DNA from: a virus
DNA: 25,205 nucleotides
Direction: 5' to 3' (one strand)
IMG/VR virus record: IMGVR_UViG_3300034682_000233
Location: 1-25,205 of that record
Shown: in pieces, positions 13,121 to 20,639 of the stretch
How positions within the stretch are numbered: position 1 is the first letter of the stretch
Layout of the letters: each line of letters starts with the position of its first letter
Made by a program: the position numbers and the translations under genes
The notes under the pieces: generated by a model
Seen by the model: the letters and a program-made list of their open reading frames with translations, nothing else
What the model was told of the DNA's origin: nothing
The model's database searches: none

Positions 13121-15391
13121 ATGACTGCTTACACTGGACTGCTGACACCTGTCTCGGTCATCCGAAATTCGATCTCCGCTATCACGCAAATTCTCGCTGG
13201 CCGCAACATCGCGGTTTATCAGCGTGGGCTTGTAGCTTGTGTTTCCTATAGCGAAGCAACCGGCGAGCCCGTATCTGTCACCCTCCCCTATCTTCCTGAT
13301 GACGCCAGTGACGATCTGATCTTGGCGGTACAGGGCTTCCTCGACCACGAGGTCGGCCATCTGCTGTTTACCGACAACAAGGCTGTGCTTGAGATTGGCC
13401 ATGACGCCGACTGGCTTCACATGCAGAACGTCCTTGAGGACCCGTTCGTTGAGAAGAATATGCAGAAGACCTTCCCAGGGTCGAAAGCCACAATCACTCG
13501 GCTGCATACCTTCTTCATCGACCGCATTGTCAATGCCAACTACCAAAAGCTGCTCGACAGAGGGTCCGTCAACCCTCTCGAATACTTTGGCGTTCTGCTG
13601 CCGTGTATCTCTCGTGCCTGGCACCAGTTCGTCACCTTCGACGAGTACATGAAGGACAAGTGGCACCATGTAGAGCCAATCATCAAGAAACTGCCGGCCG
13701 ACATATCCGATAGGGTGTGCGCTGCCACTAGCACCAGCGACAACATCGCTCTCGCCCGTTTCCTCATCGATGCCATCATGCGTGTGCCGGATGATGACGA
13801 GCATGATGACACCGGTATGGCCGATAGCGAGTCGTCGGAGCCTGGATCTGAGCCATCTGGGAAGTCCAGTCCTGGAAGAGGCAAATCCCCCAAGCGCGAT
13901 GTGCTGATCGACGAGGAGGGTGATTACGAAGAGCCGGAACACGAGCCTTCCGCTGACGACATGGATGACCTGGGCGAGCCTGCAGACGAGGTCCCAGACG
14001 ACGAAGAGAGCGCTCCATCACCAGAGCCGGTCTCTGCCGATATTCCAGGGGATGGCGCGGGCGAGATTGATGGTTCTGACGATGATGAAACCGCTGCTGA
14101 CCTGGAAGGTGATGACCCTGTAGAGACCGACGAGGATGACTCGGAAGACGCCACGCTTGGCTCTGACGAGTTCGACGACGAGGTTGATGAGGCTGCAAAA
14201 GGTGACGGCTCTGACGAAGAGCTGGATTCAGATGCCAAGATGTCCTCAGCTGGCCGAGAGTCTGACGATGTGGATGAGGTTTCTCTCTCTGGCAAGGGCG
14301 GGCCTAAAAAGGCCAAAGGCGAAGACCCTGAAGAGGAGCCGGAAACGGAAGAGGACAAGGAACCCGTCTGGACCCCGGGCGAGGGCGAGTCTCTCATGGA
14401 CTACTCGGTAGGTGACATGGAGACGGCGCTCGAGGGGTCAATAGCGTCAATGGCCTCGGATGCCGCCAAGAAGTCTTCCTACGTCATCTACTCAACGGAC
14501 AACGACACGATCGAGCCGTTCAAGGTTCACTCGATGAGTGCTCTTGCGGCGAAAGCACTGCCCAAGATCGAGTCGTTGACCAAGCATCAGGTTGGCGTCA
14601 TGCAGAACAGCCTGCAGCGAGCGCTGGTGTCGAAGAACAAGTCGCACTGGCGAACGGCTCAGGAGAGCGGTCGGATAAACACAGCGGCGCTCTCACGCTT
14701 GTTTGTGGGGGATACCAGGGTGTTCCGTCGCAAAGTAGAGCACCGAAGTAAAAGCTTCGATGTCTCGCTGTTGATCGACTGCTCCGGCTCGATGGCCCAC
14801 GGCACCGGCTCTTTGACGCGCTTCCAGACGGCGATGGTGGCCGCTTACGCGATGGCGGATACCCTTCATCGGATCGGCGTGAACTTTGAGATCCTGGGCT
14901 TCACCACAAAATCCCACACCTCCGAATGGAGCGAATCCTGTTACAGGGAGATGCACAAGCATGGGGTGAAGTTCGGCCGGATAGATTGGCTCTACATGCC
15001 GATATTCAAATCATTCGAAGAGCGGTGGGGCCCGAAAGCGATGGAGCGAATAGGCGCGGCATTCTCGACCGACAACTTCCTTCGAGAGAACGTTGATGGT
15101 GAGTGTGTTCAAATTGCCGCTCAAAGGCTGATTGCCCAGCGGTCAGAGGGGAAGATGCTGATTGTCCTATCGGACGGTGTACCGGCTTGCCACACCTACG
15201 ACCACTCATCTTTGTCTCGCCACTTGTCCAAGTCGGTCAAGTCCGCCGAGAAGGCCGGCATCAAGGTGATAGGCGTGGGGATCGATACGGACTCTGTGTC
15301 GAGATTCTACGACGACCATATCGTTCTGCGGGATGTGACAAAACTGCCGACAGAGCTGGTTGAGCAGGTGCAGAGAGTGCTGCTCCGGTAA
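13121..15391 (+). CDS. cobT: CobT-like VWA protein with HEVGH metallopeptidase-like N-terminus
   Basis: 756 residues in three parts. The N-terminal part (1-225) contains H76-E-V-G-H80, a zincin-type HExxH, then Glu106 in NVLEDPFVEK, placed like a third ligand and like the LEDxRVE segment of CobT. Residues about 225-430 are a long, highly acidic, probably disordered linker. The C-terminal VWA domain has a complete MIDAS: D553-C-S555-G-S557, with Thr in the 563-567 loop, and LSDG (D685). The next gene is a CobS-like AAA+ ATPase. CobST normally inserts cobalt into cobyrinate with CobN, but no cobalamin gene is present, so a MoxR/VWA-style remodelling role is more likely. Translation start may be controlled by the hairpin just upstream. 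Confidence 0.85.
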   Translation: MTAYTGLLTPVSVIRNSISAITQILAGRNIAVYQRGLVACVSYSEATGEPVSVTLPYLPDDASDDLILAVQGFLDHEVGHLLFTDNKAVLEIGHDADWLHMQNVLEDPFVEKNMQKTFPGSKATITRLHTFFIDRIVNANYQKLLDRGSVNPLEYFGVLLPCISRAWHQFVTFDEYMKDKWHHVEPIIKKLPADISDRVCAATSTSDNIALARFLIDAIMRVPDDDEHDDTGMADSESSEPGSEPSGKSSPGRGKSPKRDVLIDEEGDYEEPEHEPSADDMDDLGEPADEVPDDEESAPSPEPVSADIPGDGAGEIDGSDDDETAADLEGDDPVETDEDDSEDATLGSDEFDDEVDEAAKGDGSDEELDSDAKMSSAGRESDDVDEVSLSGKGGPKKAKGEDPEEEPETEEDKEPVWTPGEGESLMDYSVGDMETALEGSIASMASDAAKKSSYVIYSTDNDTIEPFKVHSMSALAAKALPKIESLTKHQVGVMQNSLQRALVSKNKSHWRTAQESGRINTAALSRLFVGDTRVFRRKVEHRSKSFDVSLLIDCSGSMAHGTGSLTRFQTAMVAAYAMADTLHRIGVNFEILGFTTKSHTSEWSESCYREMHKHGVKFGRIDWLYMPIFKSFEERWGPKAMERIGAAFSTDNFLRENVDGECVQIAAQRLIAQRSEGKMLIVLSDGVPACHTYDHSSLSRHLSKSVKSAEKAGIKVIGVGIDTDSVSRFYDDHIVLRDVTKLPTELVEQVQRVLLR

Positions 15392-15428
15392 TCATCGCAA
15401 TCAGGGCGATTCGGTCGCGCCCAATGGT

Positions 15429-15502
15429 CAGTAAATATTGACTGTTTATCGCCCTGAGTTTCGCGTTTAGAATAACAGCGTTGTTTAAGCTAACACTTAC
15501 TG
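15429..15502 (+). promoter_or_regulatory. Two operators flanking a weak promoter before cobS-like gene
   Basis: CAGTAAATATTGACTG (15429-15444) is the most symmetric copy of the window-wide palindrome. AAGCTAACACTTACTG (15487-15502) is a second, weaker copy 58 bases further on, centre to centre. Between them TAGAAT (15468-15473) is a possible -10 with a poor -35. The gap between the cobT-like stop (15391) and the cobS-like start (15516) holds nothing else. Confidence 0.6.
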
Positions 15503-15515
15503 AACAGAGGAAACC

Positions 15516-16712
15516 ATGACTGATCTCACCGCTATTGCCAATCCAGAAGAAAAGATCTCCTGCGCCATCTGTCACGCGAAGGTCCACGCTATTCAGCTTC
15601 ACCTGCGCGATCACCACCCGACAGTCACCATTGAGCAGTACAAGGCGGACTACCCAGACGCGCCCCTGTTGAGCGAGGCGGCTATCGCTCGTATCAACGC
15701 CCGCAACAAGACAAAAGAGGAGCTGACGGCTTCAGCGGAGCTCAGCGCGGCCAGCATGAAGATGGTCGAGACGAAGAACCTGCCTCTCTACGAGGTGTTC
15801 GAGCTCGGCAAGAAGTGTAAAGGGGCAATGAGAGCCGACGGCTCCCCTATCATGGTCGAGGTTGCCGGCTCGACAGAGTGGGACATGCAGATCCCGGATG
15901 TTGATGACCGCTATGTCTTCGATGTGGACGTCTTGAAGACGTTGCTGATGGGTATGGTCATGAAGATCCCGACTTATCTCTGGGGCCATGCCGGCACCGG
16001 CAAATCCACCATATTCGAGCAGATGTATGCTCGGCTCCATCGGCCGATTATCCGGATCCAGCACACTGGCTCGACCGAAGAGGCCCACATCCTCGGCCAG
16101 ATGGCTGCCGACCCAGAGCGAGGCACCTTCTTCTCGCCCGGCCCCCTGCCTCTTGCGATGAAGTACGGCTGGGGATACCTCGCCGACGAGTACGACTTCT
16201 CGTTCCCCCAGGTGCTCGCCGTGTATCAGGCGGTACTCGAGGGCAAGCCGCTGATCATCAAAGATGCGCCTGCGGATTCTGAGTGGCGGGTTGTTCATCC
16301 TCACCCGAACTTCCACTTCATGGCGACCGGTAACACCAACGGATCTGGCGATGACAGCGGCCTGTACCTGGGCACCAATATCCAGAACGCGGCGAACTTC
16401 GAGCGCTTTGGCATCGTCCTCCAGATGAAGTACATGCCGGCCAAGCAAGAGGCGGCAGTCGTCTCTTCTCAGGGGAATATTGCGATGCCGGATGCAGAGC
16501 GGCTCGTCCGCTTTGCCAACCTTGTTCGCGAGGCCTTCGATGCCAAGAAGATTGGCGCCACTCTCGGCCCCCGCGTGTTGATCAATGCCGCACGAATTGG
16601 TGTGGCCAGAGCGTCCTTCATGACCGGTCTGCAGCTGTCATTCTTGAACCGACTGACGCCTGTTGATAAGGAGACCTGCGCTCAAATCGCAGCGCGGGTT
16701 GTTGAAGGATGA
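15516..16712 (+). CDS. cobS: CobS/MoxR-like AAA+ ATPase with N-terminal Ros/MucR-type zinc finger
   Basis: 398 residues. The start has C16-x2-C19-x9-H29-x3-H33 followed by TIEQYKADYPDAPLLSE, the pattern of Ros/MucR zinc fingers. The AAA+ part has Walker A GHAGTGKST (K163), RIQHTGSTEEAHILGQ, Walker B GYLADEYDF (D224, E225), sensor 1 FHFMATGNTNGSGDDSGLYLGT, and an arginine-rich end. This is the CobS/MoxR group, which remodels partners carrying VWA domains; the partner is the CobT-like protein just upstream. GAGG precedes ATG 15516. It overlaps the next gene by four bases. The function in phages is unsettled. Confidence 0.87.
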   Translation: MTDLTAIANPEEKISCAICHAKVHAIQLHLRDHHPTVTIEQYKADYPDAPLLSEAAIARINARNKTKEELTASAELSAASMKMVETKNLPLYEVFELGKKCKGAMRADGSPIMVEVAGSTEWDMQIPDVDDRYVFDVDVLKTLLMGMVMKIPTYLWGHAGTGKSTIFEQMYARLHRPIIRIQHTGSTEEAHILGQMAADPERGTFFSPGPLPLAMKYGWGYLADEYDFSFPQVLAVYQAVLEGKPLIIKDAPADSEWRVVHPHPNFHFMATGNTNGSGDDSGLYLGTNIQNAANFERFGIVLQMKYMPAKQEAAVVSSQGNIAMPDAERLVRFANLVREAFDAKKIGATLGPRVLINAARIGVARASFMTGLQLSFLNRLTPVDKETCAQIAARVVEG

Positions 16713-17311
16713 TCCCCTCCCCTCAGCCCTGGCACCACTGCCAGGGCCAAATTGTCTGCTTCTCTGCCAGCGCCAAGAGCTGCAAGGAGTGTCCTCAAAA
16801 CAAGGAGTGTGCGTTGGAGGTGCGTTCTCGCCTCCACTCACTTCAAGAGCGGATTGATGTCTCCAAGCTTTTGCATGGCGTCCAGGCGTTCCTTGATCGC
16901 AAGGGCGTGTCACGCGGCGACATCAAGGTCGAGCTTGTCTCCGGGGCCAAGCCGCTGATTGGCAAAAGCAGAGAGAGATTTGAGAGTCGCCGCGACTTGT
17001 CGTCCCTCTCCGTTCACGCAAGGCGTATTGCAACTGCCATTGAGAAGTCTGGCATCGATATGGTTGCCGACTCCAAGCAAGGCGTGAACTCGTTCAAGAC
17101 GATGAAGATGCGACCCGGCTACCTCGCTGAAATCCAAGAACTGCTGAACAAGAGACGCCCGTTCTCCAGGCTCGAGTTGAAACTCGCCATTGGGCGAGCG
17201 GTGACGCTCTCTCCGTCCAGCATGAACAACACATCCTCCTTCGTTATCTCCGCACTGGAGGCGTTGGAGGTGATTACCCAAGTCGGAGATGGCTTATATG
17301 CACCTAACTAA
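16709..17311 (+). CDS. Unknown protein with N-terminal Cys cluster
   Basis: 200 residues. ATG 16709 overlaps the cobS-like stop, and the gene overlaps the polymerase start. Cys11, Cys17, Cys25, Cys28 and Cys34 near the N-terminus (GQIVCFSASAKSCKECP) form a probable zinc or iron-sulphur site. The centre is basic and helical. The last ~55 residues (FSRLELKLAIGRAV ... VISALEALEVITQVGDGLYA) look like a winged helix, suggesting DNA binding. Sandwiched between the AAA+ ATPase and the polymerase, it may link the two. No family recognised. Confidence 0.75.
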   Translation: MIPSPQPWHHCQGQIVCFSASAKSCKECPQNKECALEVRSRLHSLQERIDVSKLLHGVQAFLDRKGVSRGDIKVELVSGAKPLIGKSRERFESRRDLSSLSVHARRIATAIEKSGIDMVADSKQGVNSFKTMKMRPGYLAEIQELLNKRRPFSRLELKLAIGRAVTLSPSSMNNTSSFVISALEALEVITQVGDGLYAPN

Positions 17312-20300
17312 CGCTCGCTCCCACTTCTCGATGGGTCGAGCCGTGTCCTCGGTTGACGCGATCGTCAAGAAGGCTTTGGAGATGGGTTATCAAAGCGTCA
17401 TCCTCACCGATGACGCGACAATATCCGGGATGACTGACCTGTTTAAGGCCATGCCCGAAGACTGCGGCGCCAAGGCGATTATAGGGACCTCCATCAAGGT
17501 GTTTGATGACCCTACTTATCGCCCGCCATCGAAGAAGAGCGGCCTTGAGATAAAGCCGAATCACTTCTGGGAGGCAAAGCTTCTGGTCAAGAACGAGGAG
17601 GGCCTGAAGGCCCTGTTTTCTCTTCTGACCAAGGCCAGGTCTGAGGAGTATTTCTACTATGAGCCTCGCATCGGGGTTCTCGATCTGGTCAAAGCCTTGA
17701 GAAGTGACGGGCTGATCCTGACGACCGGTGATTTCTTTTCGCTGTTTGCCCACTGCAAAGCAGACAAGATCTACTCTGCTCTGGTCAAGCATGTCCCAGC
17801 GCATCAGCGCGTCATAGAGCTCGTCCCGCTCAAGAGCGCATACTTTGATCGCGTCAATTCGATAGCGTCTCAGAAAGCGATTGAGAGCGATTCCCGCGTG
17901 ATGCTTTCAAGGCCGATTCTGTACGTCGATAAGGGGCAGGATGACGCCCGCGATGTAATGAGTTACATCATTGGCCAGGGTAGCGCCGTCCACCCACTGC
18001 GGAACATCCCGTACAACCGCGACTTGCACATGCTGTCCCTGTCGGAGATGGAGACGGAGATATTGGAGTGGAGAAAGCGGACAGGCATTACTGTTCCCGA
18101 CGACACTCAGGCCATCGTCGATGACTGTCAATATCGCTGGCAGAAGCAAGGCATGTGTCTCCCTCAGATGGCGGAGGATGAGTTTGCAGAGCTTACCAAG
18201 CTGTGCCTGGAGGGCTTCAAAAATCGCCTGACCAAGAAGGTGTTTGGCTACCAGCCTTCGCCCGAGAAGTTGCCCGAGTACCGCGCCCGCCTCAAGTATG
18301 AGCTTGGCGTGTTGCGCGACATGAAGTTCGACCGGTACTTCCTGTTGATCAGGGACATCATCATGTGGTCGAAGAGCAACGGCATTATGGTTGGCCCTGC
18401 CCGGGGTTCCGCGGGCGGCTCACTGGTGGCGTTTTTGATTGGCGTTACCGATGTTGACCCTATCCGCTTTGGCCTGATCTTCGAGCGCTTCCTTAACCCC
18501 GATCGTCTGGACTATCCCGACGTCGATACCGACTTTATGAGTAGCCGACGCCATGAGGTGCTTGAGTACATCACGAATCGGTTCGGGCAGGATCATGTGG
18601 CTGGGATTAGTAACTACTCCACCCTGGCGGCCGCTTCTGCTATTCGGGATGTTGCCCGTATCCATGACCTCCCGCAGCAGGACTACAGCTGCACCAAGGT
18701 GATTGATCAGGGCATGAGTCTGTCTGAGGCCAAGGAGCTGCCGGAGATCAGCCGGTACGCCTCCGCTCACCCGAGAGAGTTTGCCATTTCTGAGACGCTA
18801 GAAGGAGCCATGCGCAGCCTAAGCCGTCACGCCGCGGGCGTTGTGGTGGCCGGTGAACCTCTCACCCGCCGTAGCGCGGTAGAGGTGCGTAATGGCGAGC
18901 AGACGGTCAACTGGGACAAGCAGGTCGTTGAGGACTTTGGGTTGATAAAGCTCGATATTCTGGGCCTGTCCACCCTGGACACACTCAACCTGGCCAGACA
19001 GAAAATCCAAGACCGCCACAAGGTTCAGCTCGATTTCACATCCATCCCTCTCGATGACGAGAAGGTGCTTAAGGCCTTCGCGGCAGGGGATACGGCCGGT
19101 GTATTCCAGTTCGTCTCGCACGGTATGCGGCAGCTGCTTAAAGACCTGTCCGAGGGTGGCAGGGACCTCTCGTTCGAGGACATCTATGCGGCAACGGCTT
19201 TGTTCCGCCCGGGCCCTCTCCAGTCGGGCATGACGGAAGAGTACGTCCGCATCAAGCAAGGCATGGTGAAGCCTCACTATGCCCACCACAAGATGGAGGA
19301 TGCCCTGCGAGAAACTCGGGGGATTATCGTCTATCAGGAGCAGGTCATGCAGATCGCCCGAGACTTGTGCGGCTACACAATGGGCGAGTCGGACAAGCTC
19401 CGAAAGGTAATGGGTAAGAAGCTGCCGGAGGAGATGGAGAAGCAGCGCGAGAAGTTCGTGTCGGGCGCGGTGTCGTGCTCGGGCATGGATGAGCACCAGG
19501 CGTCGGATCTGTTCGACCAGATTGCCGAGTTCGCCGGCTACGGCTTCAACAAATCCCACTCAGTCGCCTATACGCTGATCTCCTATCTGTGCATGTGGGT
19601 CAAGGTCCACTACCCCGCGGAGTTTTTTGCCGCCGCACTGTCGATTGCGAAAGAGGACGAGTTGCCCTCAATCGTCAAAGATGCCGAGAAGTCGGGGATC
19701 TATGTGGTCCCGCCCTGCATCAACACATCCACCGACGCCTTCGAGATAGGGTACGACATGCTGCGAGAGCAGCACATTCTCTATGCCCCGCTCCAAGCGG
19801 TTAAGCAGGTGTCGGACAATGGCGTGAAGGCGATCCTCAAGGCGAGAGAGGCCCAGGGCGGCCGCTTCAAATCGAAGGCTCACTTTATCGAGTCGGTGGA
19901 GCGTCGATTGGTCAACAAGCGGGTTCAGGAGAACCTGGAGCTGGTAGGCGCCTTTTACGCGATAGAGCCTGGCAGTCTGGATCCGAGACACCCAGATCGT
20001 CTCCGTGATCAAAAGTCCCTGCTGCCAAACCTCATGCTGAGAAGTGTGAAGGCAAACCGTCCCATCCTGATCGATGCGTTTGTGGAGAGTCAGCTTGAGG
20101 TTCTGTTCGATGACATGCGGAAGATGGGGCTGGACGATGAGGGCCTGACTGTAGGGCCTCAGCCGGTCATTCCAACTCACGGCAAGAAGCCGAAATTCAT
20201 GTTCGTTACGGACTCTCCGGCCTACTCCGAGTGCGAGTCAAAGCGGTTTGCCGAGGGGAAGAGCTTCAACTACACGCTGAGCGCCCTCAAAGAGGCAGAG

Positions 20301-20639
20301 CTTAAAAAGTCAGACGGTTATTACACCGCTCTGGTGAAGACCAAGAAGGCGGATAAGCAGCTGACGACAGCGGAGATAAACACTTGGTCGCACTTCCTCG
20401 ATGCGGAGATCGAGCTCCTCAAGCCTCCCGTGATCATCGCTGCAGGGGGCGCAGTGGCTAGACACCTGTGCCCGGATGTCAAAGGCGGCTGGGAGGCGAT
20501 TGCGGGGACTTCCGTTTACGACGTAAAGCGGGACTGCACCATCATCTTCGCCCCCAACCCGCAGATGGTTTACGCCAAGCCTGACGTCCAGACGGTGCTG
20601 GACAACATCATGTGCGATGTCGCCGAAATGATGCGATAA
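17298..20639 (+). CDS. dnaE: DNA polymerase III alpha (DnaE) with C-terminal UDG-like domain
   Basis: 1113 residues from ATG 17298 (GGAG nine bases upstream); ATG 17289 abuts the ribosome site and would add three. The N-terminal PHP domain is degenerate (HLTNARSHFSMG, LTDDA). The polymerase core has GPARGSAGGSLVAFLIGVTDVDP, PDVDTDF (D408, D410, D412) and KLDILGL (D553), so all catalytic Asp appear present. Helix-hairpin-helix-like sequence follows, then QLEVLF (932-937), a good sliding-clamp motif. Instead of the usual OB and tau-binding domains, residues about 965-1113 match family 4 uracil-DNA glycosylases (KFMFVTDSPAYS, TTAEINTWSHFLDAEIELLKPPVIIAAGGAVARHL), but GEGPG is TDSPA and the catalytic His is Asn1087 (NPQ). 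It is the phage replicative polymerase; the UDG-like part is probably inactive. Confidence 0.92.
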   Translation: MHLTNARSHFSMGRAVSSVDAIVKKALEMGYQSVILTDDATISGMTDLFKAMPEDCGAKAIIGTSIKVFDDPTYRPPSKKSGLEIKPNHFWEAKLLVKNEEGLKALFSLLTKARSEEYFYYEPRIGVLDLVKALRSDGLILTTGDFFSLFAHCKADKIYSALVKHVPAHQRVIELVPLKSAYFDRVNSIASQKAIESDSRVMLSRPILYVDKGQDDARDVMSYIIGQGSAVHPLRNIPYNRDLHMLSLSEMETEILEWRKRTGITVPDDTQAIVDDCQYRWQKQGMCLPQMAEDEFAELTKLCLEGFKNRLTKKVFGYQPSPEKLPEYRARLKYELGVLRDMKFDRYFLLIRDIIMWSKSNGIMVGPARGSAGGSLVAFLIGVTDVDPIRFGLIFERFLNPDRLDYPDVDTDFMSSRRHEVLEYITNRFGQDHVAGISNYSTLAAASAIRDVARIHDLPQQDYSCTKVIDQGMSLSEAKELPEISRYASAHPREFAISETLEGAMRSLSRHAAGVVVAGEPLTRRSAVEVRNGEQTVNWDKQVVEDFGLIKLDILGLSTLDTLNLARQKIQDRHKVQLDFTSIPLDDEKVLKAFAAGDTAGVFQFVSHGMRQLLKDLSEGGRDLSFEDIYAATALFRPGPLQSGMTEEYVRIKQGMVKPHYAHHKMEDALRETRGIIVYQEQVMQIARDLCGYTMGESDKLRKVMGKKLPEEMEKQREKFVSGAVSCSGMDEHQASDLFDQIAEFAGYGFNKSHSVAYTLISYLCMWVKVHYPAEFFAAALSIAKEDELPSIVKDAEKSGIYVVPPCINTSTDAFEIGYDMLREQHILYAPLQAVKQVSDNGVKAILKAREAQGGRFKSKAHFIESVERRLVNKRVQENLELVGAFYAIEPGSLDPRHPDRLRDQKSLLPNLMLRSVKANRPILIDAFVESQLEVLFDDMRKMGLDDEGLTVGPQPVIPTHGKKPKFMFVTDSPAYSECESKRFAEGKSFNYTLSALKEAELKKSDGYYTALVKTKKADKQLTTAEINTWSHFLDAEIELLKPPVIIAAGGAVARHLCPDVKGGWEAIAGTSVYDVKRDCTIIFAPNPQMVYAKPDVQTVLDNIMCDVAEMMR

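Follow-up and report, generated by a model that had tools for sequence, protein, structure and literature searches.

A viral DnaE replicative polymerase ends in a family 4 uracil-DNA glycosylase fold that has very probably lost its active site

The replicative DNA polymerase encoded in a stretch of viral DNA of 25,205 nucleotides (IMG/VR record IMGVR_UViG_3300034682_000233, positions 1 to 25,205; hereafter the window) ends in a domain with the fold of family 4 uracil-DNA glycosylases (UDGs). Sequence comparisons indicate that this domain is very probably a pseudo-enzyme, in which the catalytic site has been lost and the fold retained. The architecture itself is already known (Timinskas 2014), and what is newly added here is the loss of the active site across a whole lineage of phages and phage-plasmids.

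The dnaE-like gene (17289-20639, plus strand, as are its domains and residues given below) was defined by its open reading frame and Pfam matches. It encodes a C-family polymerase of 1116 aa, slightly longer than the ~1113 aa of the initial annotation. The protein contains a PHP domain (residues 10-158, 17316-17762; PF02811, E=7e-15), a polymerase catalytic region, DNA_pol3_alpha (residues 301-559, 18189-18965; PF07733, E=1.5e-74), a finger domain (residues 562-728, 18972-19472; PF17657, E=7.6e-52), and a helix-hairpin-helix region (residues 803-892, 19695-19964; PF14579, E=3.7e-15), which is the last portion common to ordinary DnaE. These domains, together with the invariant residues D413, D415, and D556, which are by homology the polymerase catalytic aspartates, identify the protein as a C-family DnaE, and its TIGR00594 score was 694 bits (cut-off 434). 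The NCBIfam DnaE models reach only to residue ~893, and the UDG-like domain, delimited by profile and predicted fold, comes after it (residues 935-1116, ~182 residues; 20091-20636).

The C-terminal domain matched the Pfam UDG profile PF03167 above the gathering score (residues 967-1096), with E=2.2e-8 for the whole protein and E=8.1e-10 when only the C-terminal 183 aa were searched. A family profile compared with the PDB matched family 4 UDGs at E=1e-30. An AlphaFold model of residues 935-1116, built with 43 related C-termini as alignment, had a pLDDT of 95.0 and a pTM of 0.90, and its best Foldseek match was 4zby, a family 4 UDG (E=2.3e-14). With VIA, the model matched the family 4 UDGs of S. 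tokodaii, T. thermophilus, and T. maritima (Z 22.6-24.3, rmsd 2.0-2.4, 174-177 residues), with 4zbx of S. tokodaii at Z 24.3 and rmsd 2.0 over 177 residues. The psi subunit (HolD) is perhaps UDG-like; it was absent among the fold matches listed for the domain model. A full-length model (pLDDT 87.9, pTM 0.76) resembled Pol III alpha over residues ~1-900 and family 4 UDG over residues 930-1116. The profile match and the UDG alpha/beta fold place the domain in the UDG superfamily. The initial annotation had described a family 4 UDG-like C-terminal domain and proposed structure prediction and a fold search as the check; the Pfam match, the AlphaFold model, and the fold search all agree with it, the best matches being family 4 UDGs.

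The fold is retained without the residues of the family 4 active site. Residues E41, N80, H155, and F54 of T. thermophilus UDG align with D975, A1014 (20328-20330), N1090 (20556-20558), and A988 of the window protein. The GE[GA]PG motif is replaced by TDSPA (residues 974-978, 20208-20222), as had been read from the sequence at the outset, and the four cysteines of the 4Fe-4S cluster by Met946, Gly952, Thr1018, and Trp1033 (20124-20387). The change of the catalytic His to Asn had also been recognized, but the residue is Asn1090 and not Asn1087, a difference of three. Among 44 sequences of the window's phage and phage-plasmid lineage, the N80 and H155 positions were replaced in all 44 and the E41 position in 43, each time by Asp, while all 79 cellular family 4 sequences in the comparison have E, N, and H. 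In ~19-20 of the 44, three of the four cysteines are retained, so that the decay of the cysteines looks graded. The domain scored 35.2 bits with TIGR00758, the curated NCBIfam model of family 4 (cut-off 125.3), although this score alone says little, since L053, a viral DnaE-UDG fusion with an intact motif, also fell below the cut-off (98 bits). We infer from these replacements that the domain is without glycosylase activity, and the earlier view of it as probably inactive is strongly supported by the sequences. The accompanying suggestion that the domain may read template uracil fared less well. N80 and F54 contact uracil in family 4, and the loss of their counterparts in the window domain speaks against template-uracil sensing; both positions vary within the lineage (A/T/S/G and L/G/S/M, respectively).

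The domain lies where other DnaE proteins have different parts. The OB domain and tau-binding C-terminal domain (CTD) of canonical DnaE1 were not found in the window protein, in which the OB profile PF01336 had no match, whereas two of the nearest UDG-less DnaEs (L050 and L055) showed an OB match at residues ~1005-1080. Together with the end of the DnaE models at ~893, this upholds the original proposal that the UDG-like domain takes the place of the OB and tau-binding parts. In the 16 records searched, there was one UDG place per record, always linked to the polymerase, although one contig carried the same fusion twice. Five whole records of related phages or phage-plasmids contained no UDG of another kind, and a dUTPase was found in only 3 of the 16 records.

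The window was 98.5% identical over 99% of its length to plasmids of Aeromonas jandaei (CP053880.1) and A. caviae (NZ_AP024137.1), and it comes from an Aeromonas phage-plasmid. A related Aeromonas plasmid carries phage structural genes together with plasmid replication and partition genes; the related Aeromonas plasmid NZ_CP077222.1 bears tet(A). Genes for a CobT-like VWA protein and a CobS-like AAA ATPase (13121-16712) lie immediately upstream of dnaE in the window and likewise in its relatives. The same fusion was found in nickie-type Pseudomonas phages, Rhizobium phages, Stenotrophomonas phages, and SSU5-type phage-plasmids. The window DnaE was 37-38% identical to the DnaEs of SSU5 and Cyrano, and the SSU5 DnaE grouped in the window's clade in the polymerase tree. 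Viral contigs searched with the window protein alone gave no matches, and a mixed alignment showed no stretch of sufficient conservation to serve as a query. A relative of the domain was found in 914 plasmid records (Klebsiella, E. coli, Acinetobacter, Salmonella, and others), which makes the domain part of the replicase in common phage-plasmids, a group known for carrying resistance genes (PMC9600943). Literature searches on phage DnaE-UDG fusions gave nothing relevant, and the GenBank note of Rhizobium phage RHEph10 already reads 'uracil-DNA glycosylase-like'.

The window copy of dnaE is intact, whereas in near relatives the gene is split at a site corresponding to window positions ~19467-19484 (residues 727-732) into an N-terminal half, a NUMOD4 homing-endonuclease-like ORF, and a C-terminal half (L248, 14419-18613; L257, 716-4959). 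Six further loci (L009, L039, L040, L044, L046, and L047) are split at about the same site. The SSU5-type DnaEs (L005, 8004-11522; L006, 1004-4510) have an insertion of ~50 aa after window residue ~727, which is the endonuclease split site of the others. A split intein was considered for the split DnaEs and is disfavoured: the ORFs overlap the gene for the NUMOD4-type homing endonuclease, and the additional residues are similar to the SSU5-type insertion, which makes genes in pieces more likely. It should be noted that the C-terminal half of the split gene is annotated as 'uracil-DNA glycosylase family protein', a label implying a repair activity that is very probably absent.

As to what the domain does, we lean slightly towards a dead family 4 UDG fold that replaces the OB and tau-binding parts and is selected for a non-catalytic job as a docking or structural module of the phage replisome. 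A family 4 UDG fold would have joined a phage DnaE where the OB and tau-binding domains would sit. The domain would then have lost its catalytic, uracil-reading, and Fe-S residues while selection kept the non-catalytic job, presumably that of anchoring the polymerase within the replisome of the phage itself. It would most probably do so by offering a surface on which another phage replication protein docks, namely a helicase, primase, or gp32-like SSB encoded nearby, and this docking would stand in for the tau binding of the CTD in the host enzyme. UDGs with catalysis-independent replisome roles are on record. MHV68 vUNG is one (PMC10312458), and vaccinia D4, which acts as part of a processivity factor, is another (PMC1936997, PMC5682278). 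A decaying remnant without function, as might be read from the missing catalytic and Fe-S residues and the graded look of the cysteine losses, is very improbable. Over 14 related pairs, the dN/dS of the domain was mostly 0.04-0.26 (highest 0.54, in one pair; undefined in one) and similar to that of the polymerase part, and the comparison with the Aeromonas plasmid NZ_CP077222.1 showed 28 synonymous and no nonsynonymous differences in the domain. Such purifying selection indicates that the domain is maintained. Its confidently predicted fold and its retention across phages of Pseudomonas, Rhizobium, Stenotrophomonas, Aeromonas, Acinetobacter, and Enterobacteriaceae also argue against decay.

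A closer competitor to docking, though a doubtful one, is a processivity module, in which the dead UDG fold would grip DNA without base specificity and keep the polymerase on its template without a phage clamp. The beta clamp profile PF02768 had no match in the 16 records, which include five complete phage or phage-plasmid records, and no canonical beta-clamp-binding motif was apparent in the window DnaE, where the sole Q-x-[ES]-L-L stretch, QKSLL (residues 908-912), overlaps a predicted helix and lacks its Q in some relatives. Kazlauskas and Venclovas 2011, as cited in PMC5135824, proposed a processivity role for PolA-UDG fusions of phages, and vaccinia D4 provides a precedent. However, the host clamp may still serve through an unrecognized motif, and the charge of the domain fits gripping somewhat less well. 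The mean net charge was -2.2 in the lineage, whereas intact-motif fusions and cellular UDGs both averaged about +5; over the core columns only, the lineage had -0.6, the intact-motif fusions +2.4, and the cellular UDGs +3.6, net charge being a crude proxy and the compared sequences not being independent. Most of the conserved arginines of family 4 are also replaced in the lineage. The negative charge and lost arginines speak mildly against simple gripping and, with moderate confidence, favour a docking or structural role, while the conserved K1017 and K1065 leave some DNA contact possible. An altered glycosylase or base sensor, whose rebuilt pocket would still flip or read a damaged or modified base, is unlikely. 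It would account for the near invariance of D975 and Tyr1011-x-Thr1013 beside the former pocket, Asp975 could in principle serve an altered chemistry, and the UDG domains of SPO1-type PolA proteins, which come from phages whose DNA is modified, have changed similarly; the free variation in the pocket at the N80 and F54 sites argues against it.

Viral DnaEs that carry a UDG are not all inactivated. A motif-based search found many with a UDG retaining the catalytic motif and cysteines, and E, N, and H were kept in nearly all of them; as the motif was part of the search patterns for this second set, its size is no estimate of how frequent intact-motif fusions are. Two members show partial losses, L066 (8839-9399) through N to T and H to N, and L108 through E to D and N to S, and both appear to have been inactivated separately and later. 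In six others (L054, L107, L140, L148, L150, and L152), GQDPG stands for GEAPG with N, H, and the four cysteines kept, and the Asp sits where family 1 has its catalytic Asp. Four long members (L113, L147, L151, and L156; 1477-1898 aa) carry inteins (PF14890) at differing sites, and in L151 the intein match stops just ahead of the UDG match. In the polymerase-core tree, the window lineage was sister to UDG-less DnaEs (100/97), and for this core the AU test rejected a single vertical DnaE-UDG ancestor of the intact and dead fusions (p=1.8e-6). In the UDG tree, a supported branch (98/88) has both DnaE sets on the same side. It is possible that the UDG joined DnaE more than once, perhaps through captures from related sources, that C-termini were exchanged, or that the UDG was lost in some lines. 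The co-occurrence of intact-motif and dead-motif fusions makes the role of a UDG inside a replicative polymerase testable.

A suggestive parallel is provided by family A polymerases. Of five phage PolA-UDG proteins, all had lost the pocket Asn, four had Asp for Glu, and all kept the His, which is a small sample, wider sampling of viral contigs having yielded few loci; the motif was intact in a PolA-like protein of a viral contig (L166). We tentatively suggest that phages may have recruited the UDG fold into replicative polymerases several times (intact at the DnaE C-terminus, dead at the DnaE C-terminus, and at the PolA N-terminus), and that the dead DnaE and PolA domains changed the same two positions alike (Glu to Asp, and the pocket Asn to a small residue or Pro). 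If true, these parallel changes would set apart a class of non-catalytic replisome module that has so far gone undescribed.

Among known systems, the family 4 UDG enzymes of T. thermophilus, S. tokodaii, and T. maritima share the fold of the window domain but possess the catalytic, uracil-contacting, and Fe-S residues that are all replaced in it. The same architecture, with an archaeal-type UDG (PF03167) replacing the OB domain and CTD, was described for extra polymerases of some Yersinia pestis and Salmonella enterica strains (Timinskas 2014, PMC3919608); the passage concerned does not mention an active-site loss, whereas the window domain has lost its site. The intact-motif viral DnaE-UDG fusions (L053, L091, and others) likewise have a C-terminal UDG on a viral DnaE, but nearly all of them possess GE[AG]PG, N, HP, and the four cysteines, and their polymerase cores lie outside the window's clade. 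In the SPO1-type family A polymerase, a UDG fold is likewise fused to a phage replicative polymerase, but the polymerase family differs, the UDG is N-terminal, and the His is kept, whereas the window UDG is C-terminal and has lost the His. Vaccinia D4 resembles the window domain in being a UDG fold with a probable non-catalytic task in a viral replisome, a task established for D4 itself; however, D4 is a separate subunit joined through A20, belongs to a different UDG family, and is a working glycosylase, whereas the window domain is fused to its polymerase and has the family 4 fold.
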